36,696 nt of DNA, taken from contig JAGBAV010000042.1 of the NCBI GenBank assembly GCA_017938795.1, positions 1 through 36,696 on the forward strand, given 5' to 3'. Shown in pieces: positions 6,843-14,888 of this stretch. Source of the stretch: Clostridia bacterium (lineage in GTDB: Bacteria > Bacillota > Clostridia > Christensenellales > Aristaeellaceae). Each line of letters opens with the position of its first letter. Within the stretch, counting starts at the first letter, position 1. A program made the position numbers and the translations under genes. The notes below the pieces were generated by a model. The model worked only from the letters and a program-made list of their open reading frames with translations. It did no database searches and was not told where the DNA came from.

Positions 6843-7172
6843 TTATCGGCGGATGTATGTCCGCTCGATGCGCCTGTATGCGCGGACAAGCAGGGCGAAG
6901 CCGGCGGAGCAGCCAAGCCCCGCCGCAATCAGCGAGGCGATGGGGCTGACGAGCGCGAGCAGCCCGGCCGCCCAGTACCAGAGGGAATAGCGCGCCCACA
7001 TCCGCGCATGCGCCCTGTTGTGCCCATGGATATCGGCGACCGAGGCAGGATCGACCTCCGTCCCCGCCCAGAAGGGCATGGGGTCGCTGCGCCGCAGGGC
7101 CCACTGCGCGACGGCGCAGAACACCGCCGCCGTCCCGAAATAGATCATGCAGGTGATGAGCTTGCCGGCCAT
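6843..7172 (-). CDS. Small membrane protein of unknown function, last gene of the aromatic operon
   Basis: The 109-residue protein has three hydrophobic segments (about residues 3-22, 63-82 and 84-100) around a conserved-looking soluble stretch, PMPFWAGTEVDPASVADIHGHN, followed by ARMWARYSLWYW. Small Firmicutes membrane proteins with an FW-x-G-T ... DI-x-x-x-N ... MW-x-x-Y pattern are common, but I know of no assigned function. The start is supported by AAGGAGG five nt before the ATG. It begins 9 bp after the RidA-like gene, so it belongs to the same transcript. There is no evidence from its sequence for a direct role in aromatic metabolism; membership of the operon is the only functional hint. 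Confidence 0.75.
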   Translation of the reverse strand: MAGKLITCMIYFGTAAVFCAVAQWALRRSDPMPFWAGTEVDPASVADIHGHNRAHARMWARYSLWYWAAGLLALVSPIASLIAAGLGCSAGFALLVRAYRRIERTYIRR

Positions 7173-7181
7173 ACGTCCTCC

Positions 7182-7544
7182 TTACTTCCCGCAGTAGGCG
7201 ATCGCGTCCGCCTGAAACTGCAGGCCGCTCTCTCCTCCCCTGTGCGCGAACTCGGTCTGGATCGATTTGCGCACGGGGTATTTCCCGCCGAACCGCTCCT
7301 TGATGACCTTCTCCATCACGGGGATGTTCCACACGTCGCGGAAGAGGCAGTCCATCTGCACGACATGCTCAAGCGTCAGACCGACGAGCGCGAGCCTGCG
7401 CTCCATCTCGTCGAATGCACCGTTGATCTGCTCCTCGACGGTGCCGCCGACATTGCCGACGCAGTAATTGAGGAAGCAGAAATCCCCGGCGCGGATGATG
7501 CCGGTATGCGCCCAGTCCTCGTGAATATCGTATCGTTCGATCAT
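7182..7544 (-). CDS. RidA-family (YjgF/YER057c/UK114) protein
   Basis: The 120-residue length and the pattern GDFCFLNYCVGNVGGTVEEQ, followed by AFDEMERRLALVGLTLEHVVQMDCLFRDV, match the Rid family. These trimeric proteins hydrolyse reactive enamine/imine intermediates released by PLP enzymes. YPVRKS probably supplies the family's catalytic Arg. The C-terminal block reads LQFQADAIAY where classical RidA has a VEIE-type acidic motif, so this looks like a non-archetypal Rid subgroup with possibly different activity. It lies 18 bp after aroK and 9 bp before the small membrane protein, inside the aromatic operon. A housekeeping role beside amino-acid biosynthesis is plausible because transaminases making Phe and Tyr produce such intermediates, but this is inference. 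Confidence 0.85.
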   Translation of the reverse strand: MIERYDIHEDWAHTGIIRAGDFCFLNYCVGNVGGTVEEQINGAFDEMERRLALVGLTLEHVVQMDCLFRDVWNIPVMEKVIKERFGGKYPVRKSIQTEFAHRGGESGLQFQADAIAYCGK

Positions 7545-7562
7545 GATGCGCCTCCTTCGGTG

Positions 7563-8075
7563 TTACAGCAGCGCCTGCACATCGGGCAGGGCGAGCAGCG
7601 CCTTGGCGGCCTGCTGCGGCGGCAGGCTGTTGTCATAGAGCAGATGCGCCGCCCCGCGGTAGAGCGCCTCGCGCCGGGCATAGAGGGTGCGCATGCGCTC
7701 CTCCTTGTCCCCGGCGAGGTTGGGGCGGGTGTCCTGCCGCACGCCGGCGATGATCGACTCCAGCGGCCTGCACAGCCACACGACCAGCCCGGTCTCCCGC
7801 ATGAGCGCGATGTTCTCCGGGCGCGTGATGATCCCGCCGCCGGTGGCGATGATGCGTGGCGGCATGGCGCAGGCCGCGCGCAGGGCCGCCGTCTCGCAGA
7901 TGCGGAAGGCGTCGTCCCCGCCGCCTGCGAAGATCTCCGGGATGCTGCGGCCTTCGCGGCGCACGATTGCCTCGTCAAGGTCGAGGCAGGGCGTGCCGGT
8001 CAGCTGCGCGAGCGCCGCCGCCATGGTGCTCTTGCCGCAGCCCATCATGCCGATCAGGAACAGATGCTTACGCAT
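7563..8075 (-). CDS. aroK: Shikimate kinase
   Basis: The 170-residue enzyme phosphorylates shikimate at the 3-hydroxyl with ATP, the fifth step of the shikimate pathway. The Walker A motif GMMGCGKST lies near residues 9-17. The shikimate-binding DLDEAI segment, the EIFAGGGDDAFR helix and the ATGGGII loop follow, and a lid Arg occurs in GVRQDTRPNL. The length is normal. Its start overlaps the 3' end of pheA by 8 bp, indicating translational coupling, and the RidA-like gene follows 18 bp later. It is in the same minus-strand operon as aroF, aroB, aroA and aroC. Confidence 0.95.
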   Translation of the reverse strand: MRKHLFLIGMMGCGKSTMAAALAQLTGTPCLDLDEAIVRREGRSIPEIFAGGGDDAFRICETAALRAACAMPPRIIATGGGIITRPENIALMRETGLVVWLCRPLESIIAGVRQDTRPNLAGDKEERMRTLYARREALYRGAAHLLYDNSLPPQQAAKALLALPDVQALL

Positions 8076-9180
8076 GGCCGCTCTCCTTGGCCGAGCGGTA
8101 TGCGCCCAGCAGCCTGCAGCCGTCGCAGTCCGCCGCGAGGGACTGCATCAGCACATGCAGGTTGTCTTCCGCGACGTTGCCCACCACGTCCACATAGAAG
8201 CAGTATTCCCAGCTGCCCTTGCGCAGCGGGCGGGATTCGATGTGCGTCAGGTTCATGCCCAGCGCGACGAAGCTGGACAGCGCGCGCATCAGCGTGCCGC
8301 GCTCATGGCGCACGGAGAAGGTGAGCGTCGCCTTGTCCGGCACGCCGATGGGCGTGGGCGAGGCGCTCACGACGATGAAGCGCGTATGGTTGCCGGTGTA
8401 GGAGTGGATGTCCGGCATGAGGATATCCAGCCCGTAGTGCCGCGCGGCGAGGCGCGAGGCGATGGCGGCGCAGTGCACGTCGCCCATCTGCGCGACATGG
8501 CTGGCGGCGATGGCTGTGTTGAAATACGGGGTCTGTATCCAGTCCGAATGCTGCGCGAGGAAGGACGGGCACTGCGCGAAGCCCTGCTCATGGCTGTAGA
8601 CGGTAGTGATGTCCTCGATGCGCGCGCCGGGCACGCCCAGCAGGCAGTGCTCCACGCGCACCAGCTGCTCGCCGACGATATGGCAGGAGTACGCGCCCAT
8701 CAGGTCGTAGACCGTGTTGATCGAGCCGGAGGAGGAGTTCTCCACCGGGACAACGCCGTACTTCACGCGCCCCTCGGCGACGGCGGCGAAGACCTCCTCA
8801 AAGGTCTTATAGCTCACACGCTCGCAGTCCGCGCCGAAGAAGCCGATGACCGCGCTCTCGCCGAAGGCGCCGGGCACGCCGCTGTAGGCGACGACGCTGT
8901 CCTCGCAGAGCGCGTCGAGGCAGCGCTGCTGCTCCTCGCGCGACAGGCGCATCAGCTCGCGGTACAGCTCCGTCACCGGGCCGCGCAGCACATCCTCCTC
9001 CGCCATCTGCGCGCGGGAGGCGAGCACGGCCTCCTCGCGGGAGGTGTCCAGGATGTTCATGTGGTGCTCATGCTTGTAGCGCACGACGTCGCGCGAGACG
9101 CGCATGCGCTCCTCAAAGAGGCGGACGATCTGCCGGTCGATGGCGTCGATCTCCGCGCGGCACTGGATCAGATCCTTCAT
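8068..9180 (-). CDS. pheA: Bifunctional chorismate mutase / prephenate dehydratase (P-protein)
   Basis: The 370-residue protein converts chorismate to prephenate and then to phenylpyruvate, the Phe branch. An AroQ-type chorismate mutase helix bundle occupies about residues 1-90 (RAEIDAIDRQIVRLFEERM). The prephenate dehydratase domain begins near residue 105 (VAYSGVPGAFGESA), with VENSSSGSI and the substrate-site motif TGNHTRFIVV. A C-terminal ACT domain (about 285-360, LSSFVALGMNLTHIESRPL) is the usual site of allosteric inhibition by phenylalanine. All three modules appear complete. It sits 17 bp after aroC and overlaps aroK. It also supplies the only chorismate mutase visible in the operon, because the TyrA here has none. 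Confidence 0.96.
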   Translation of the reverse strand: MKDLIQCRAEIDAIDRQIVRLFEERMRVSRDVVRYKHEHHMNILDTSREEAVLASRAQMAEEDVLRGPVTELYRELMRLSREEQQRCLDALCEDSVVAYSGVPGAFGESAVIGFFGADCERVSYKTFEEVFAAVAEGRVKYGVVPVENSSSGSINTVYDLMGAYSCHIVGEQLVRVEHCLLGVPGARIEDITTVYSHEQGFAQCPSFLAQHSDWIQTPYFNTAIAASHVAQMGDVHCAAIASRLAARHYGLDILMPDIHSYTGNHTRFIVVSASPTPIGVPDKATLTFSVRHERGTLMRALSSFVALGMNLTHIESRPLRKGSWEYCFYVDVVGNVAEDNLHVLMQSLAADCDGCRLLGAYRSAKESGHA

Positions 9181-9197
9181 GTCGTGTTCCTCCCTGC

Positions 9198-10307
9198 TTA
9201 CGGTGTGTGGCGGTGCGGGTAGAGGCTGCAGTCATCCGCCATCAGCTCGCACAGCGCGATGGCGAGCACGCTCTCGATGACCGGCACGGCGCGCAGCACG
9301 ATGCACGGATCATGGCGGCCGGTGACGCTCAGGGTCGTGTTCTCCCCGGTTTCAAGGTTGATCGTCTGCTGCTCGCGGGCGATGGAGGGCGTGGGCTTGA
9401 TCGCCGCGCGGAACACGACGGGCATGCCGTTGGTGATGCCGCCGGTCACGCCGCCGTTGTGGTTGCTCGTGCAGGATACGCCGCCGTCCGTCATGCGCAT
9501 GGGGTCATTGGCCTCGCTGCCGCGCAGGGCAGCGATGTCCATCCCGTCGCCGAAGGCGACCGCCTTGACCGCCGGCACGGAGAAGGCCAGCTGGCTGACC
9601 ACGCTCTCCACCGAGCCGAAGAACGGCGAGCCGATCCCCGCCGGGACGCCGACCGCGGCGCACTCGATCACGCCGCCGACGCTGTCGCCCTCGGCCTTTG
9701 CCGCGGCGATGCGCGCGCGCATCTCGCCTTCAAGCGAGGGATCCAGCAGCGGGAAGCGGCTCTCCTGCAGGGCGAGCAGGGTCTGCGCGTCCATATGGAC
9801 GGGGTCGAGCGCCCTGTCGCTGCAGCCGGCGATCTGCGCGATGTGCGCGCCGATGGTGATGCCCCGGGCGGCGAGCATCTGCCGCGCGACGGAGCCAGCG
9901 AAGACCAGCGGCGCGGTGAGCCTGCCGGAGAAGTGGCCGCCGCCCCTCGGATCGTTATAGCCGCTGTACTTGACATGCCCGGCGTAGTCCGCATGGCCGG
10001 GGCGCATGCGCGTGCGCAGCTGCGCGTAGTCGCCGGAGCGCGTGTTGGTGTTCATGATCATGCCGCAGATGGGCGCGCCGGTTGCGCGTCCGTCCATCAC
10101 GCCGGACATGATGCGCACGGCGTCCGGCTCCTTGCGGCTGGTGGCGGCGGGGTCGCTGCCGGGGGCCCTGCGCGCCATGTCGCGGGCGATCGCCTGCTCG
10201 TCGATGGGCGTGCCGGCGGGTACGCCGTCGATGACCACGCCGATAGCCTCCCCGTGGGATTCGCCGAAGATGGTCAGCCTGTACTGCGTGCCGAAGTTTG
10301 CTCTCAC
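9198..10307 (-). CDS. aroC: Chorismate synthase
   Basis: The 369-residue enzyme eliminates phosphate from 5-enolpyruvylshikimate-3-phosphate to give chorismate, using reduced FMN. The N-terminal FGTQYRLTIFGESHGEAIG signature, the DPRGGGHFSGRLTAP motif and the C-terminal GRHDPCIVLRAVPVIES motif are all present, and the length is normal. The ATG overlaps the aroA stop codon by 4 bp (ATGA), a clear coupling signal. pheA follows after 17 bp, so synthesis of chorismate and its first Phe-branch use are encoded side by side. Confidence 0.97.
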   Translation of the reverse strand: MRANFGTQYRLTIFGESHGEAIGVVIDGVPAGTPIDEQAIARDMARRAPGSDPAATSRKEPDAVRIMSGVMDGRATGAPICGMIMNTNTRSGDYAQLRTRMRPGHADYAGHVKYSGYNDPRGGGHFSGRLTAPLVFAGSVARQMLAARGITIGAHIAQIAGCSDRALDPVHMDAQTLLALQESRFPLLDPSLEGEMRARIAAAKAEGDSVGGVIECAAVGVPAGIGSPFFGSVESVVSQLAFSVPAVKAVAFGDGMDIAALRGSEANDPMRMTDGGVSCTSNHNGGVTGGITNGMPVVFRAAIKPTPSIAREQQTINLETGENTTLSVTGRHDPCIVLRAVPVIESVLAIALCELMADDCSLYPHRHTP

Positions 10308-11590
10308 AGCGCGATACCTCCCAGTGATGCGAATTCATCGTAGAATGCGAGGGCGGACTTGGCGACGGCCTCCGCGTCGGAGATGACCATGTCGCCCTCC
10401 GCGATAGCGGAGGCGACGGCCATCGCCATCACGATCCTGTGGTCGTTGCAGCCGTCGATGGCAGCCGCGTGCAGCGGGTTTCCGCCGCGGATGATCAGCC
10501 CGTCGGGCAGCTCAGTCACGTCCGCCCCGGCGGCGCACAGCGCGGCGCGCATGGCGGCGAGGCGGTCGCTCTCCTTGATGCGCAGGCGGCCTGCGCCGGT
10601 GATACGGCTCTCTCCTTTGGCGGCGGCCATCGCCACAGCCAGCGCGGGCACGAGATCGGGCGTCTGGCTGACGTCGACTTCAGCGCCGGTCAGCGAGGAG
10701 GGGCGGGCGGCGATGCTGCCGTCCTCCTGCAAGGTGATGCGCGCGCCCATGCCGCGCAGGATACCGAGGATCGCGCGGTCGCCCTGCGTGCTCTGCAGGT
10801 CGAGCCCTGTGAGGGTCACCGGGCCGCCGCGGCCGATCGCGCCGGCGACCAGATAGAACGCCGCGTGGCTCCAGTCGCCCTCGACCTCAAAGCGGCCGGG
10901 GGAGACCGGCGTCTGGCTGCCGGGGATGACGAGGGTATGGTCGTCCGCCCAGCGGGAGACGACGCCGAAGGCCTGCTGGATGCGCCGCGTCAGTTCGACG
11001 TATGCGCGGGATTCAAGTTTTGTCGTGATGCGGATGACGCTCTCGCCGTCAAGGCCGGGCAGCGCAAGCAGCAGGCCCGTGATGAACTGGCTGCTGACGT
11101 CGCCGGGCAGCGCGTATTCGCCGGGCGTGAGGCAGCCTTCGACCGTCAGCCGGTCGCCGTCTTTTTGCCATGAGACGCCCCGGGGGAGGAAGAGCTCCTC
11201 ATAGACGCCGAGCGGGCGCTGCATCAGCCTGCCGTGCCCGATGAAGGTCACGGGGCCGCGCCCGTCCAGCGCGAGGGGGATGAAGAAGCGCAGCGTCGAG
11301 CCGGACTCGCCGCAGTAAAGCGTGCGCGGGCCGCAGGCAGCGCCGGCCCCGCCGATCAGCGACGCGGAGACAAGACCGCCGGGCAGCGGCGAGAGCTGCG
11401 CGCCGCCGGTGAGCCCGAGCGCCTTTGCGCAGGCGAGCGTGGCCTCAATATCGCGCGAGAGCTGCAGCGGGCCGACCGTGCACGCCCCCTGCGCCATCGC
11501 GGCGAGCATCACCGCGCGGTGAGAGGCGGACTTGCTGGGGATGATGCGGACGCTGCCCTGCAGCGCGGAGGGGCGGATGGTCTTGTTCAT
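10304..11590 (-). CDS. aroA: 3-phosphoshikimate 1-carboxyvinyltransferase (EPSP synthase)
   Basis: The 428-residue enzyme joins phosphoenolpyruvate to shikimate-3-phosphate. The N-terminus contains IRPSALQGSVRIIPSKSASHR, with the substrate-binding KSASHR motif. YCGESGSTLRFFIPLA follows near residue 90. The C-terminal RIKESDRLAAM and NDHRIVMAMAVA motifs are intact. The usual glyphosate-contact LFLGNAGTAMRPL-type motif is represented by the shorter CGESGSTLRF form common in class II-like enzymes of Firmicutes. It lies 10 bp after aroB and overlaps aroC by 4 bp. Confidence 0.96.
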   Translation of the reverse strand: MNKTIRPSALQGSVRIIPSKSASHRAVMLAAMAQGACTVGPLQLSRDIEATLACAKALGLTGGAQLSPLPGGLVSASLIGGAGAACGPRTLYCGESGSTLRFFIPLALDGRGPVTFIGHGRLMQRPLGVYEELFLPRGVSWQKDGDRLTVEGCLTPGEYALPGDVSSQFITGLLLALPGLDGESVIRITTKLESRAYVELTRRIQQAFGVVSRWADDHTLVIPGSQTPVSPGRFEVEGDWSHAAFYLVAGAIGRGGPVTLTGLDLQSTQGDRAILGILRGMGARITLQEDGSIAARPSSLTGAEVDVSQTPDLVPALAVAMAAAKGESRITGAGRLRIKESDRLAAMRAALCAAGADVTELPDGLIIRGGNPLHAAAIDGCNDHRIVMAMAVASAIAEGDMVISDAEAVAKSALAFYDEFASLGGIAL

Positions 11591-11600
11591 GTCGTCCTCC

Positions 11601-12674
11601 TCATGCCGTGAGCAGCGCGCGCAGCTGATCGGGGGTCAGCGGCACGCCGGTGCATGCGCCGATGGCGGTGAGGATCACAGTGTTGACCTTCGCGCCGTCG
11701 GCCTTCTTGTCAAGCGCCATGGAGTCGGCGAGCGCCTGCGCCGTCAGCCCCTCGGGGATATCGGTCATCATGCCGTAGGCGGTCAGCAGCGCGCGGATGC
11801 GGCCCTGCGTGCCCTTGGGCGTCACGCCCAGCGCCTCGCCCCAGCCTGCGGCGGCGACCATGCCGATGGAGACAGCCTCGCCGTGCAGCAGCGTGCCGTA
11901 GCCCATGCCGTTCTCCAGCGCATGGGCGAGCGTGTGGCCGAAGTTGAGCTGCATGCGCACGCCGTGATCGAACGGATCCTCGTGAACATAGCGCGCCTTG
12001 ATCGCGCAGCAGCGGGCGACGACCTCGTCGATCTGCGCCATCAGCGCCGCGCGGGAGCCAAGACGCTCCAGCAGATCAAACAGATCGCTGTCGGCGATGC
12101 AGCCGTACTTGACGACCTCGCCAAGGCCGGCGCCGATCTGCCGCTCGTCGAGCGTGAGCAGCGTGTCGCAGTCGATGACCACCATATCCGGCTGGCAGAA
12201 TGCGCCGAGCAGATTCTTCCCGCGCGGGTGATTGACGGCGACCTTCCCGCCGACGGAGGAATCCACCTGCGAGAGCAGCGTCGTGGGCACCTGCACAAGC
12301 CGCGTGCCGCGCATATACGTCGCGGCGGCATAGCCCGCGATATCGCCCACCACGCCGCCGCCGAGCGCGACGACGACGTCCCTGCGCGTCAGGCGCAGGT
12401 CGAGGAAGGCGTCGTAGAGGGCGGAGAGCTGCTCCGGGCACTTGGTCGTCTCGCCCGCGGGGAGGGTGATCAGCGCAGGCTGCACGCCGGCAAGACTGAG
12501 CTGCGCCATGAGGGCGTCGGCATAGAGCGGCGCGGTGTTGCTGTCGGCGACGACGGCGGCCTTGCGCCCGGCATACGGGGCGAACAGCGCCGCGCAGCTG
12601 CGCAGCAGGCCGCGGCCGATGTGGATCTCATAGCGGCTGTCCTTAGCCGGGGCGGCAACGGATACGATGGGCAT
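11601..12674 (-). CDS. aroB: 3-dehydroquinate synthase
   Basis: The 357-residue enzyme cyclises DAHP to 3-dehydroquinate using NAD+ and a divalent metal. The NAD-binding GGGVVGDIAGYAAATYMRG motif and the QVPTTLLSQVDSSVGGK motif are present. Metal ligands are expected in GEVVKYG and in the two His-containing segments NFGHTLAHALE and LHGEAVSIGM. All are intact. It begins 14 bp after tyrA and is followed by aroA after 10 bp. It is the only early-pathway cyclisation gene here; aroD and aroE, needed for the next two steps, are not in the window. Confidence 0.96.
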   Translation of the reverse strand: MPIVSVAAPAKDSRYEIHIGRGLLRSCAALFAPYAGRKAAVVADSNTAPLYADALMAQLSLAGVQPALITLPAGETTKCPEQLSALYDAFLDLRLTRRDVVVALGGGVVGDIAGYAAATYMRGTRLVQVPTTLLSQVDSSVGGKVAVNHPRGKNLLGAFCQPDMVVIDCDTLLTLDERQIGAGLGEVVKYGCIADSDLFDLLERLGSRAALMAQIDEVVARCCAIKARYVHEDPFDHGVRMQLNFGHTLAHALENGMGYGTLLHGEAVSIGMVAAAGWGEALGVTPKGTQGRIRALLTAYGMMTDIPEGLTAQALADSMALDKKADGAKVNTVILTAIGACTGVPLTPDQLRALLTA

Positions 12675-12688
12675 GAGCGTCAGCCTCC

Positions 12689-13567
12689 TCAGGTATACAG
12701 GGGCGTCCCGCTGGGCGCCTTCGTGGTCATGCGGTCAAAGATCTTCTTGCGGTCGCTGGATGCGGTCAGCCGATCCAGCAGGGCCTCGCGGTCGCCGCCG
12801 CGCAGCAGCGCGCTGTATTCGCTGAGCTTCTGTGCCAGTTCGTCTGTGAGGTCGGCGAGCGTCTCCTTGTTCGCCCAGAAGAGCTCGCACCAGAGCTGCG
12901 CGTCCATGGCCGCCACGCGCGTCGCGCCGCGGAAGGAGCCGCCCTCAAAGCCCTTGCTCTCATAGAGCAGATGCTGGTCGCACAGGGCGAGCGCCAGCAC
13001 ATGCATCAGCTGGCTGGTGTAGCCGATGCGCTCGTCATGCTCCTCCGGCGTGGCGGTGACCACATCCGAGCAGCCGATGAACGTCGCCAGATTCGTCATC
13101 AGGCGGACGCATTCCTCCGGGACGGTCTCGTCCGGTGTGAGGATGTAGTGCGACCCGCGGAAGAGATCGCCGGTCGCATTGGCGAAGCCGCCGCGCTCCA
13201 GCCCGGCCATCGGGTGCCCGCCCAGATAGACGAAGCGGCGATCCCCCAGCGCGGCGACGGCGTCGCGCAGCGGCCGCTTGACGCCGCAGACGTCGGTGAG
13301 CATCGCTCCTTCGCTGATGCGGGATGCGTGCGCCGTGACGAAATCCGCACAGGCCTGCGGATGCAGGCAGAGGACGACGACGTCCATCTCCTCGATCGGC
13401 GCGTCCTGCGCGTCGGCCCATGCGGCCTTCACCGCGCCGCGCCCCAGCGCCTCAAAGCGCGTCCATTCGTCGCGCTCGATGGCATAGCGCTCCAGCCCCG
13501 GGCAGCCATTAAGCGCCAGCGCCATGCTGCCGCCGATGAGGCCAAGCCCCACAAACATCATCTTCAT
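12689..13567 (-). CDS. tyrA: Prephenate dehydrogenase
   Basis: The 292-residue protein oxidatively decarboxylates prephenate to 4-hydroxyphenylpyruvate, the Tyr branch. The true start gives MKMMFVGLGLIGGSMALAL, a Rossmann NAD(P) motif right at the N-terminus. GGGAGG precedes this ATG by 8 nt, so the longer open frame upstream is not used. HPMAGLERGGFANA and the LFRGSHYILTP segment are typical of the family, as is the SQLMHVLALAL helix. There is no fused chorismate mutase and no obvious C-terminal ACT domain, so feedback control may be weak or absent. It follows aroF by 29 bp and precedes aroB by 14 bp. Confidence 0.93.
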   Translation of the reverse strand: MKMMFVGLGLIGGSMALALNGCPGLERYAIERDEWTRFEALGRGAVKAAWADAQDAPIEEMDVVVLCLHPQACADFVTAHASRISEGAMLTDVCGVKRPLRDAVAALGDRRFVYLGGHPMAGLERGGFANATGDLFRGSHYILTPDETVPEECVRLMTNLATFIGCSDVVTATPEEHDERIGYTSQLMHVLALALCDQHLLYESKGFEGGSFRGATRVAAMDAQLWCELFWANKETLADLTDELAQKLSEYSALLRGGDREALLDRLTASSDRKKIFDRMTTKAPSGTPLYT

Positions 13568-13596
13568 GGCGAATCCTCCCTGCTTGGCTGTGTTCG

Positions 13597-14610
13597 TTAC
13601 ATGGTGCGCTCGACGATCGGCGCCATCGCCGTGATCTTGCCCACGAGCTGAGCGAACTGCGGCGGGGTGAGGCTCTGCGCGCCGTCGCACAGGGCGCAGG
13701 CCGGGTTGTTGTGAACCTCGATGATCAGGCCGTCCGCGCCGGCGGCAATGGCGGCCAGCGACATGCGCTCCACCATCCAGTTCAAGCCGGTGGCGTGGCT
13801 CGGGTCGACAATCACCGGCAGATGGGACAGCTGCTTGACCGCCTGCACGGCGGAGAGGTCGAGCGTGTTGCGGGTATAGGTCTCGAATGTGCGGATGCCG
13901 CGCTCGCAGAGGATGACGTTCGGGTTGCCGGAGGCCATGATGTATTCCGCGCTCATCAGCCATTCGCTGATGGTGGAGGAGAGGCCGCGCTTGAGCAGCA
14001 CGGGCCTGCGCGTCTGGCCCAGCTCCGTGAGCAGGTCGAAGTTCTGCATGTTGCGCGCGCCGACCTGAATGACGTCGACCCGGCGGTCGAACTCCTCCAC
14101 GAGCTTCGGGCTCATGATCTCGGTGCAGATGGGCATGCCGGTGAGCTCCTTCGCCTGCTCGAGCAGGTCAAGCCCCTCGAGCTTGAGCCCCTGGAAGGCA
14201 TAGGGAGAGGTGCGCGGCTTGTATGCGCCGCCGCGCAGGATGTTCGCGCCGCTGGCGCGGACCTTGAGCGCGGTGTCGGTGATCTGGTCGTAGTTCTCCA
14301 CCGAGCAGGGGCCTGCGAAGAGCGTGAGCTTACGTCCGCCGACCTTCACGCCGCCGCAGTCGATGACGGAGTCCGTCGGGTGGAACTTGCGGTTCGCTTT
14401 CTTGAAGGGCTCGGAGACCGACATGATGCGCTCCACGCCTGGCTTGATCAGGAAGTCGTGCGGATCCAGATGCGCCACGTCGCCGATGACGCCCAGCACC
14501 GTGCAGCCCACGCCGGCGTTGCGCTGGATCTGCATGCCCTGCGCAATCAGGGAATCGGACAGGGAAACAATCTGCTCTTCGGTCGCCTGCGGCTTCATAA
14601 TGATGATCAT
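13597..14610 (-). CDS. aroF: 3-deoxy-7-phosphoheptulonate (DAHP) synthase, first structural gene of the aromatic operon
   Basis: The 337-residue enzyme condenses phosphoenolpyruvate and erythrose-4-phosphate, the committed shikimate-pathway step. It is of the AroQ-unlinked type I-beta form. An N-terminal ferredoxin-like regulatory domain (about residues 1-75, MIIIMKPQATEEQIVSLSD) is followed by the TIM barrel with FAGPCSVENYDQITDTA, GGAYKPRTSPYAFQG, VGARNMQNFDLL and VDPSHATGLNWMVERM. In related enzymes the N-terminal domain mediates Tyr or Phe feedback inhibition. The chosen ATG at 14610 has AAGGA about 8 nt upstream; the longer open frame to 14739 runs through the attenuator and is not supported. 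Expression is probably controlled by the Phe-rich leader upstream. Confidence 0.96.
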   Translation of the reverse strand: MIIIMKPQATEEQIVSLSDSLIAQGMQIQRNAGVGCTVLGVIGDVAHLDPHDFLIKPGVERIMSVSEPFKKANRKFHPTDSVIDCGGVKVGGRKLTLFAGPCSVENYDQITDTALKVRASGANILRGGAYKPRTSPYAFQGLKLEGLDLLEQAKELTGMPICTEIMSPKLVEEFDRRVDVIQVGARNMQNFDLLTELGQTRRPVLLKRGLSSTISEWLMSAEYIMASGNPNVILCERGIRTFETYTRNTLDLSAVQAVKQLSHLPVIVDPSHATGLNWMVERMSLAAIAAGADGLIIEVHNNPACALCDGAQSLTPPQFAQLVGKITAMAPIVERTM

Positions 14611-14671
14611 AACCAAAATCCTTCTTTCTGACGGTTTGTCATGGTGTGATGGCGGGGAGCGCCCGGGGGAC

Positions 14672-14703
14672 AAGAAAAGGCTCCCGCCTGTGTGGCAGGA
14701 GCC
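14672..14703 (-). terminator. Attenuator terminator upstream of aroF
   Basis: On the minus strand GGCTCCTGCC pairs with GGCGGGAGCC across a 5-nt loop, with one G-U pair, and is followed by TTTTCTT. It lies 51 nt after the stop of the Phe-rich leader ORF and about 60 nt before the aroF start. A terminator placed between promoter and structural gene, behind a leader ORF, is best explained as an attenuator. A small hairpin (CCTGA/TCAGG, 14702-14715) shares its last two G residues with the terminator stem and could compete with it. Confidence 0.85.
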
Positions 14704-14722
14704 TGATGATTCAGGTGATTGA

Positions 14723-14747
14723 CGCAGGGGGATATACATCCTTTGCG
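14723..14747 (-). promoter_or_regulatory. Leader-RNA hairpin between leader peptide and attenuator
   Basis: On the minus strand CGCA pairs with TGCG and, inside an AA/CCC internal loop, GGAT pairs with ATCC around a GTAT loop. It lies just after the leader stop codon, where antiterminator or pause structures are expected. A second possible pairing joins TGCACG within leader codons 6-8 (14807-14812) to CGTGCA at the leader end (14758-14763). The exact antiterminator was not resolved by eye. Confidence 0.45.
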
Positions 14748-14754
14748 CCCGTTC

Positions 14755-14829
14755 TCATGCACGCACAAAAGCAAGACCACAGCCCATAAAGCCATAGCCG
14801 CTAAATCGTGCAAAAGAGAAGACGAACAT
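14755..14829 (-). CDS. Phe-rich leader peptide of the aromatic operon
   Basis: A 24-codon ORF starts with ATG and reads MFVFSFARFSGYGF..., ending AFVRA and TGA. Six of 24 residues are Phe (positions 2, 4, 6, 9, 14, 21), plus one Tyr. AGGAGGT lies 9 nt upstream (14839-14845), an excellent ribosome binding site. The ORF sits between a good promoter and a terminator hairpin in front of aroF. This matches ribosome-mediated attenuators such as pheL, in which stalling at Phe codons when Phe-tRNA is scarce allows read-through. No T-box sequence (UGGNACCGCGG) was seen in the leader. The peptide itself is unlikely to have a function beyond control. Translation and stalling are inferred, not shown. Confidence 0.85.
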   Translation of the reverse strand: MFVFSFARFSGYGFMGCGLAFVRA

Positions 14830-14859
14830 GGACGGCGTACCTCCTGTTGAGTTGACCTG

Positions 14860-14888
14860 AGTATACCACCATGAAAATAGGAACGCAA
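14860..14888 (-). promoter_or_regulatory. Promoter of the aromatic operon
   Basis: On the minus strand TTGCGT (14883-14888) and TATACT (14860-14865) are separated by 17 bp. Transcription would start about 24 nt before the leader-peptide ATG, so the leader ORF and attenuator are inside the transcript. Confidence 0.72.

Follow-up and report, generated by a model that had tools for sequence, protein, structure and literature searches.

A Phe-dominant aromatic leader upstream of aroF in a Clostridia bacterium: a probable transcription attenuator with candidate counterparts across Clostridia

The aroF operon and its leader region

The window analyzed here, namely the whole stretch of 36,696 nucleotides from a Clostridia bacterium, is part of a 2.87-Mb assembly which is 79% complete. 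Its minus strand carries nine genes, from the DAHP synthase gene aroF to a small ORF, which share the same direction and are overlapping or closely spaced (Table 1). The preliminary description of the locus had placed all nine under common control: the nine same-direction genes, tyrA and pheA included, are indeed there, and their spacing suggests that they may belong to a single transcript. At the end of the putative operon (7541-6843), a RidA-like gene is followed by a small ORF that matches no family.

Table 1. Features of the aroF locus and its leader.
Feature	Position	Strand	Details	Basis
Promoter	14860..14888	-	-35 TTGCGT 14888-14883, 17-nt spacer, TGg, -10 TATACT 14865-14860	sequence
Shine-Dalgarno AGGAGG of leader ORF	14840..14845	-	10 nt 5' of ATG	sequence
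Leader peptide ORF, 24 codons	14755..14829	-	MFVFSFARFSGYGFMGCGLAFVRA; Phe codons 2, 4, 6, 9, 14, 21; Tyr codon 12	
Structure 1:2, hairpin inside leader ORF	14762..14812	-	14812-14806 with 14768-14762; inner helix 14799-14790 with 14784-14775	
Segment 2, 5' side of predicted antiterminator	14754..14767	-	TGTGCGTGCATGAG; codon 21 to just past stop	folds
Two small hairpins inside antiterminator	14702..14748	-	GCGCA/TGCGT 14748-14722; CCTGA/TCAGG 14715-14702	folds
Terminator 3:4	14670..14704	-	AGGCTCCTGCC-ACACA-GGCGGGAGCCT then TTTCTTGT; hairpin 14704-14678	
Segment 3, loop and 5' arm of terminator, predicted to pair with segment 2	14689..14701	-	CTCCTGCCACACA	folds, alignment
aroF, DAHP synthase (TIGR01361 / PRK08673 type), first regulated gene	13597..14610	-		profile search, best E 2.4e-144
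Rest of operon after aroF, tyrA to small ORF	6843..13660	-		
tyrA	about 13660-12689	-	start approximate; below curated cut-off of every prephenate dehydrogenase model	
aroB	12674-11601	-		
aroA	11590-10304	-		
aroC	10307-9198	-		
pheA	9180-8068	-	one bit under its model's curated cut-off	
aroK, shikimate kinase	8075-7564	-		Pfam E 2.3e-38
RidA-like gene	7541-7182	-		Pfam E 2e-06
Small ORF without family match	7172-6843	-		

Upstream of the structural genes, the order on the minus strand is promoter, Shine-Dalgarno (SD) sequence, 24-codon ORF, 11-bp terminator and aroF, so that every element named in the preliminary description (promoter, 24-codon ORF with six Phe codons, good SD, hairpin, aroF) is present in the sequence. 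Judging from the position of the promoter, transcription is expected to start around 14853. The predicted translation of the leader ORF contains six Phe and one Tyr among its 24 codons and, for the window leader alone, this aromatic content is moderately unusual (binomial p 0.006). An automated promoter scan listed another minus-strand site (TTGTCA/CAAAAT) and missed the conserved promoter; the former was rejected in favor of the latter.

An intrinsic terminator lies between the leader ORF and aroF, the first structural gene. The aroF frame is open from an ATG at 14739 through this terminator (380 aa), so that gene-calling programs may choose the upstream start for aroF and thereby hide the attenuator. 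If aroF did start at this in-frame ATG, as the uninterrupted 380-aa frame would allow, positions 14739-14611 would be coding and the hairpin would be a part of the gene. Such a start is barely credible: relatives do not keep the upstream extension, their open frame being down to 343 aa (locus L005); the alignment with the DAHP synthase profile begins, at profile position 1, with the Met at 14610; and the terminator covaries as an RNA structure (see below).

Conservation within the genus

The genus to which the window belongs is represented by 29 genomes, 21 of which carry a window-type aroF at E<=1e-150. Two named contigs were added, one of them from Candidatus Ventricola gallistercoris, and their leaders repeat two of the genus set. 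After setting aside L123, which has only 64 nt of upstream DNA, 22 loci with enough upstream DNA were available. All 22 have a leader ORF (20 distinct), an SD-like match of 5 bases or more (which the search required), a TGnTATA(C/A)T motif and a terminator-like hairpin, the U-runs being poor in L006 and L121. TTGC is found at exactly 17-nt spacing in 20 of the 22 loci, the exceptions being L121 and L126. Conserved Phe codons together with a terminator, which had been proposed earlier as a check on the attenuator, are thus present in 22/22 genus loci; in the wider sample described below, 101 of 136 loci have both a leader and a terminator.

The 20 distinct genus leaders contain 2-7 Phe, 1-4 Tyr and no Trp codons, with Tyr exceeding Phe (4 to 2) in L006. 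Phe had been put forward as the signal; it is dominant, but the leaders are better called aromatic, as each of the 20 has at least one Tyr codon. Beyond the aromatic codons, the peptide residues ARFSGY and LAFVRA are kept in most genus leaders.

RNA structures in the leader

The terminator hairpin has an 11-bp stem with a dG of -22.1 kcal/mol. In a 20-row alignment of the genus sequences, 95.9% of its cells are paired and five pairs are changed on both sides, whereas none of 500 shuffles has as many. A second hairpin, structure 1:2, is the RNAalifold consensus of the 20 genus sequences, and its inner helix also appears in an automated hairpin list of the window. The 3' side of the RNAalifold hairpin covers codons 21-23 and overlaps segment 2. 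A hand-drawn variant of 1:2 has 88.0% of cells paired and four doubly changed pairs (19 of 500 shuffles with as many), while sliding it by +2 yields five doubly changed pairs with 77.7% of cells paired. All 20 aligned sequences share the codons CGA-TTT at 14808-14803. CGA, which is leader codon 8 (14808-14806), makes up just one of the 162 Arg codons of the seven aro genes of the window. This codon takes part in the pairing of hairpin 1:2, and it may in addition slow down the ribosome.

Folding predicts an antiterminator in which segment 2 pairs with segment 3, a pairing which the preliminary description had not included. In the 20-row alignment, 89.9% of the antiterminator cells are paired, as compared with 20-53% in versions slid by 1-3 columns. 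The covariation of 2:3 is not significant in this alignment (two doubly changed pairs, with 107 of 500 shuffles showing as many and three such pairs in the version slid by +2), and it does not prove the antiterminator because just two pairs are doubly changed. It is the retained pairing and the energetics that argue for 2:3 as a predicted structure. In the window the helix is broken into runs of at most five pairs; among the distant loci whose folds were inspected, L107 and L100 show 13 pairs in a row without interruption. The two small hairpins enclosed by the antiterminator may have a function of their own, and a hairpin of the CTGA/TCAG type can be recognized by eye in many genus sequences.

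A predicted switch depending on ribosome position

To model the effect of the ribosome, the RNA downstream of it was folded up to the terminator loop for each codon, with its leading edge set 12 nt beyond the first nucleotide of the codon in the A site. A fold that included promoter DNA was set aside, as the transcript should start after the promoter. For the A site at codons 2-20 of the window leader, the mean probability that the terminator 5' arm pairs upstream is 0.64-0.90; it drops to 0.24-0.29 from codon 21 to the stop codon. The minimum-energy fold of the window finds the 2:3 pairing unprompted. In the folding model, the predicted antiterminator therefore excludes the terminator and would be masked once the ribosome reaches the stop codon. 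A switch as strong as that of the window occurs in 14 of 500 dinucleotide shuffles and with two of 20 foreign terminators.

The same calculation was applied to 104 loci, i.e., the 108 leader-plus-terminator loci minus L044, L094, L099 and L126, in which the ORF looked wrong or a T-box was present. The early-minus-late difference averages 0.39 in these loci, versus 0.16 for shuffled bodies and 0.22 for foreign terminators. With relatedness between loci ignored in both comparisons, the locus's own switch exceeds the shuffled mean in 90 of the 104 loci (Wilcoxon 5e-15) and the mean of foreign terminators in 84. It does not exceed the shuffled mean in the other 14, and it is nil or reversed in five leader-keeping loci (L013, L033, L060, L071, and L116), two of which belong to the genus.

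The motif ATGAG, which spans the leader stop codon in the window, is complementary to the terminator arm CTCAT. It is present in 12 of the 23 loci having that arm (this set counts L126, whose ORF is wrong, as well as L087 and L098, which are near-duplicates), versus 8% in shuffles. As ATGAG occurs in each of the three frames, its conservation seems to act at the level of the RNA and not of the peptide.

Probable ribosome-mediated attenuation of the aroF operon

By far the best reading of the aroF leader is a ribosome-mediated transcription attenuator of the pheL/trpL kind, aromatic with Phe dominant, and we consider this reading very probable given the parts of the leader, their conservation, the covariation of the terminator and the computed switch. 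The attenuation mechanism of the preliminary description is thus strengthened, both by the conserved leader and terminator and by the predicted, mutually exclusive antiterminator.

For translation, stalling, the tRNA signal, termination and transcript length, we infer the following course of events. RNA polymerase would start near 14853 and make a short leader, on whose SD sequence a ribosome would load and translate the Phe-rich peptide. If the supply of charged tRNA-Phe (and tRNA-Tyr) suffices, this ribosome would reach the stop codon and cover segment 2, leaving segment 3 free for segment 4, and transcription would end before aroF. Under a shortage of Phe, it would stall at codons 2-14 and hairpin 1:2 could not form; upon such an early stall, segment 2 (codon 21 to stop) would pair with segment 3 (terminator 5' arm and loop). 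Formation of 2:3 would then allow read-through into aroF-tyrA-aroB-aroA-aroC-pheA-aroK and the two genes that follow.

A stall might also be brought about by the peptide itself. In such a TnaC-like arrest, the nascent aromatic peptide would stall the ribosome in response to free Phe or another ligand, and the RNA switch would read the stall and not tRNA charging. The retention of ARFSGY and LAFVRA, i.e., of residues beyond the Phe codons, in most genus leaders is what such a peptide would call for. However, LAFVRA falls in segment 2, so that RNA pairing can explain its conservation, and ATGAG is found in three reading frames in other lineages. Furthermore, peptides outside the genus vary widely yet stay aromatic, and the Phe/Tyr balance of leaders varies with operon content (see below). 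Peptide arrest is therefore an unlikely explanation.

Distribution of leaders and T-boxes across Clostridia

We assembled 136 dereplicated DAHP-synthase loci, many of which are close relatives of one another; they were drawn in part from 80 named loci, which are the best matches to the window's aroF and not a random draw. We also used a class-wide set of 76 loci, with one genome per genus taken by hand among the matches listed (97 genera have a match; the match in L205 starts one codon late). A leader candidate is found in 115 of the 136 loci. The binomial test yields p<=0.01 in 76 of the 136, versus 0.55 per 136 expected from dinucleotide shuffles and three of 313 upstream regions of other genes used as controls. 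As binomial p values are modest for any single locus, we relied on a combined leader-plus-terminator rule, applied alike to loci and controls. This rule is passed by 101/136 loci and by 41/76 clostridial genera, versus 3/313 control regions; the corresponding figures for the leader alone are 106/136, 44/76 and 12/313. The rule being mechanical, some of the 41 genera may be false. Named carriers include Clostridium, Pelosinus, Sporomusa, Flavonifractor, Christensenella, and a Synergistaceae assembly.

Attenuation of this kind had been noted as an enterobacterial-type oddity in a Firmicute. This view does not hold: with 41 of 76 clostridial genera passing the rule, sequence comparison suggests that ribosome-mediated attenuation is not odd for Firmicutes. 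These figures also bear on the idea that the ORF encodes a small protein with a role of its own, the hairpin being an ordinary terminator or processing site without any regulation. Small proteins are often overlooked, and this ORF is conserved and has a good SD; nonetheless, the contrast between DAHP-synthase loci and controls is hard to reconcile with this idea, the end of the ORF can pair with the terminator arm in folding, and searches of Pfam and NCBIfam with the leader peptides tried gave nothing up to E 1. We hold it to be very unlikely.

Another way to control the operon would be a T-box or another known aptamer. T-boxes do precede aroF in L099, L101, and L111, where they replace the leader peptide, and in five of the 36 class loci judged leader-less, versus none of the 24 leader loci scanned (among the 36, L217 and L230 pass the rule adopted later, and L239, a second gene copy, is not one of the 76). 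L101 and L111 have two T-boxes each in the examined stretch. The window's genome itself has 14 T-box matches, three of them over the cut-off, but none is on this contig. Covariance models of Rfam, including T-box RF00230 and the enterobacterial amino acid leaders, have no match at gathering score in the window, nor in 20 aroF loci (the window's copy and 19 relatives), which agrees with the absence of a T-box signature noted at the outset; the matches elsewhere indicate that the covariance-model search works. Control of this operon by a T-box or another known aptamer is thus exceedingly improbable. Four sub-threshold Rfam matches in the window (E 1.8-9.5) were taken as chance.

Judging from the longest downstream ORF, the 14 T-box matches of the window's genome (L128-L141) precede leuA, leuS, cysS, a TrpX-like transporter gene (scoring below its model's cut-off), metG, serS, valS, ileS, ilvB, leuC, alaS, thrS, proS, and glyS. 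They are thus associated with branched-chain, Cys, Met, Ser, Ala, Thr, Pro, and Gly genes and with the TrpX-like transporter, and none lies at the Phe/Tyr operon. Nine other loci (L045, L056, L079, L088, L091, L103, L105, L106, and L109) have neither a leader nor an Rfam match at gathering score upstream of aroF; they are mostly labelled Lachnospiraceae or genera thereof.

Comparison with known leader peptides

In the enterobacterial pheL-pheA and trpL-trpE systems, a leader ORF rich in codons of the end product is combined with three alternative pairings and a terminator before the first gene. The aroF leader resembles them in its codon-rich ORF, its three predicted alternative pairings and the position of its intrinsic terminator before the first biosynthetic gene. 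It differs from them in occurring in another phylum, in having no Rfam match at gathering score, in preceding the common-pathway gene aroF with both the Phe and Tyr branches behind it, in its mixed Phe and Tyr codons, and in a predicted antiterminator that uses the terminator loop as well as the arm.

Similar aromatic leader candidates are already published (PMC6429828, PMC8632094). One of these papers describes uORFC-13-1, a Phe-coding uORF located upstream of aroF, with a promoter, an RBS and an adjacent terminator (PMC8632094). It is represented by 24 sequences from Acholeplasma and environmental samples, with at least one Phe residue (PMC8632094). The layout described for it at aroF is the same as in the window, and the hosts are different. 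The other paper, according to the legend of its Fig. 6b, has two candidate uORFs encoding Phe and Tyr at shikimate metabolism genes (PMC6429828). As the five genomes studied there include Clostridium novyi and Thermovirga lienii, these uORFs may belong to the same family as the window leader. They are aromatic and located at shikimate genes, as in the window; the legend gives no mechanism.

Leader peptides for other amino acids appear in two further papers on Firmicutes. In Staphylococcus aureus, ilv-leu is controlled by a Leu-rich attenuator supported by mutants (PMC5794164); like the window, it combines a Firmicute leader peptide with a terminator, but for Leu/Ile and in Bacilli, not for aromatic amino acids. 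In bacilli, His leader peptides have been predicted for hisZ/hisS* (PMC2965389), where, as in the window, a leader peptide stands in place of a T-box, although for His and for genes of the tRNA-synthetase type. The accessible parts of PMC4833913, PMC2494555 and PMC11477304 contain no aromatic leader peptide in Clostridia that we could find. Our literature search, which was mostly conducted outside subscription journals and is therefore weak evidence, returned no paper describing a clostridial aromatic leader family as such.

Codon content of leaders and gene content of operons

Across many clostridial relatives, the Phe/Tyr content of the leader appears to follow what the genes behind it make. 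We located pheA, tyrA, and aroB by tblastn with the window proteins (>45 bits), so that diverged copies may be missed. In leaders with pheA downstream (n=31), F/(F+Y) ranges from 0.44 to 1.00, i.e., they are Phe-rich or balanced, whereas in aroF-tyrA loci without pheA (n=8) it ranges from 0.00 to 0.33, i.e., they are Tyr-rich. The two sets differ with a Mann-Whitney p of 8e-6, a value which ignores relatedness; as all eight aroF-tyrA loci belong to one clade (12 rows), the contrast is close to one event. The test comprised categories P (31) and T (8) and left out 70 other leader loci (37 B?, 16 ?, 11 T? and 6 '0'). Before it, the peptides of L094 and L126 were replaced by hand by the evident leader, and L041, L044, L073, L082, L084, and L099 were set to no leader; L070 (category T?) is probably a wrong ORF.

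In 11 loci, tyrA comes next and the operon end lies outside the sequence seen; their leaders are mixed and several are Phe-rich (L028, L155, and L158 outside the genus). Tyr-rich leaders are also found on other DAHP-synthase clades, and Phe-rich and Tyr-rich states require eight changes on a quick tree from which 11 near-duplicate rows were left out.

The window's genome carries a second DAHP synthase gene (L142, C100:15719-16699), which has its own leader, MRIRIAYGRNTLYYRRSAGSLCGV, with three Tyr and no Phe codons, located 215-140 nt upstream of the gene and followed by a terminator. In the folding model, the switch of this leader is weak (0.58 to 0.49). Second copies in relatives have leaders ranging from Tyr-only to Phe-rich, and those nearest to L142 on the tree are Tyr-rich or balanced. 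Together with the Tyr leader of L142, these nearest copies suggest, from codon content, isozyme-specific control of the two DAHP synthases.

We lean towards the view that much of Clostridia, together with outliers in Negativicutes (Pelosinus, Sporomusa) and Synergistaceae, shares one old family of ribosome-read attenuators for aromatic synthesis, whose Phe/Tyr mix would have been adjusted in evolution to what each operon produces. In genomes with two DAHP synthases, each isozyme would then have a separate leader, a Phe-rich one for the operon and a Tyr-rich one for the gene elsewhere. If this is true, ribosome-mediated attenuation would be an ordinary and probably old control of the shikimate pathway in Clostridia, operating beside T-boxes in the same genome. 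In E. coli, aromatic control is exerted via TyrR and allostery; clostridial attenuators would then do by translation what E. coli does with these. The exchange of Phe and Tyr codons with operon content would amount to a natural experiment on the evolution of attenuator specificity, and many uncultured species would have a testable regulator of aromatic synthesis.

A trpE model has no match in the window's genome (79% complete, as noted above) and matches two of the 29 genus genomes and none of the nine of high quality, the assemblies being incomplete; this scarcity fits an operon feeding Phe and Tyr only. A link between Trp codons in the leader and trpE was not found in a wider search of 46 genomes (L069 excluded): a trpE-like match (>400 bits) is present in 14 of the 25 genomes with leader Trp and in eight of the 21 without. 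In the genus, 27 of the 29 genomes lack a trpE match and the 20 distinct leaders lack Trp codons, which is consistent with such a link and not evidence for it. The scarcity of trpE in the genus, along with a T-box match before the TrpX-like transporter gene in the window's genome, suggests that the genus may be unable to make Trp.
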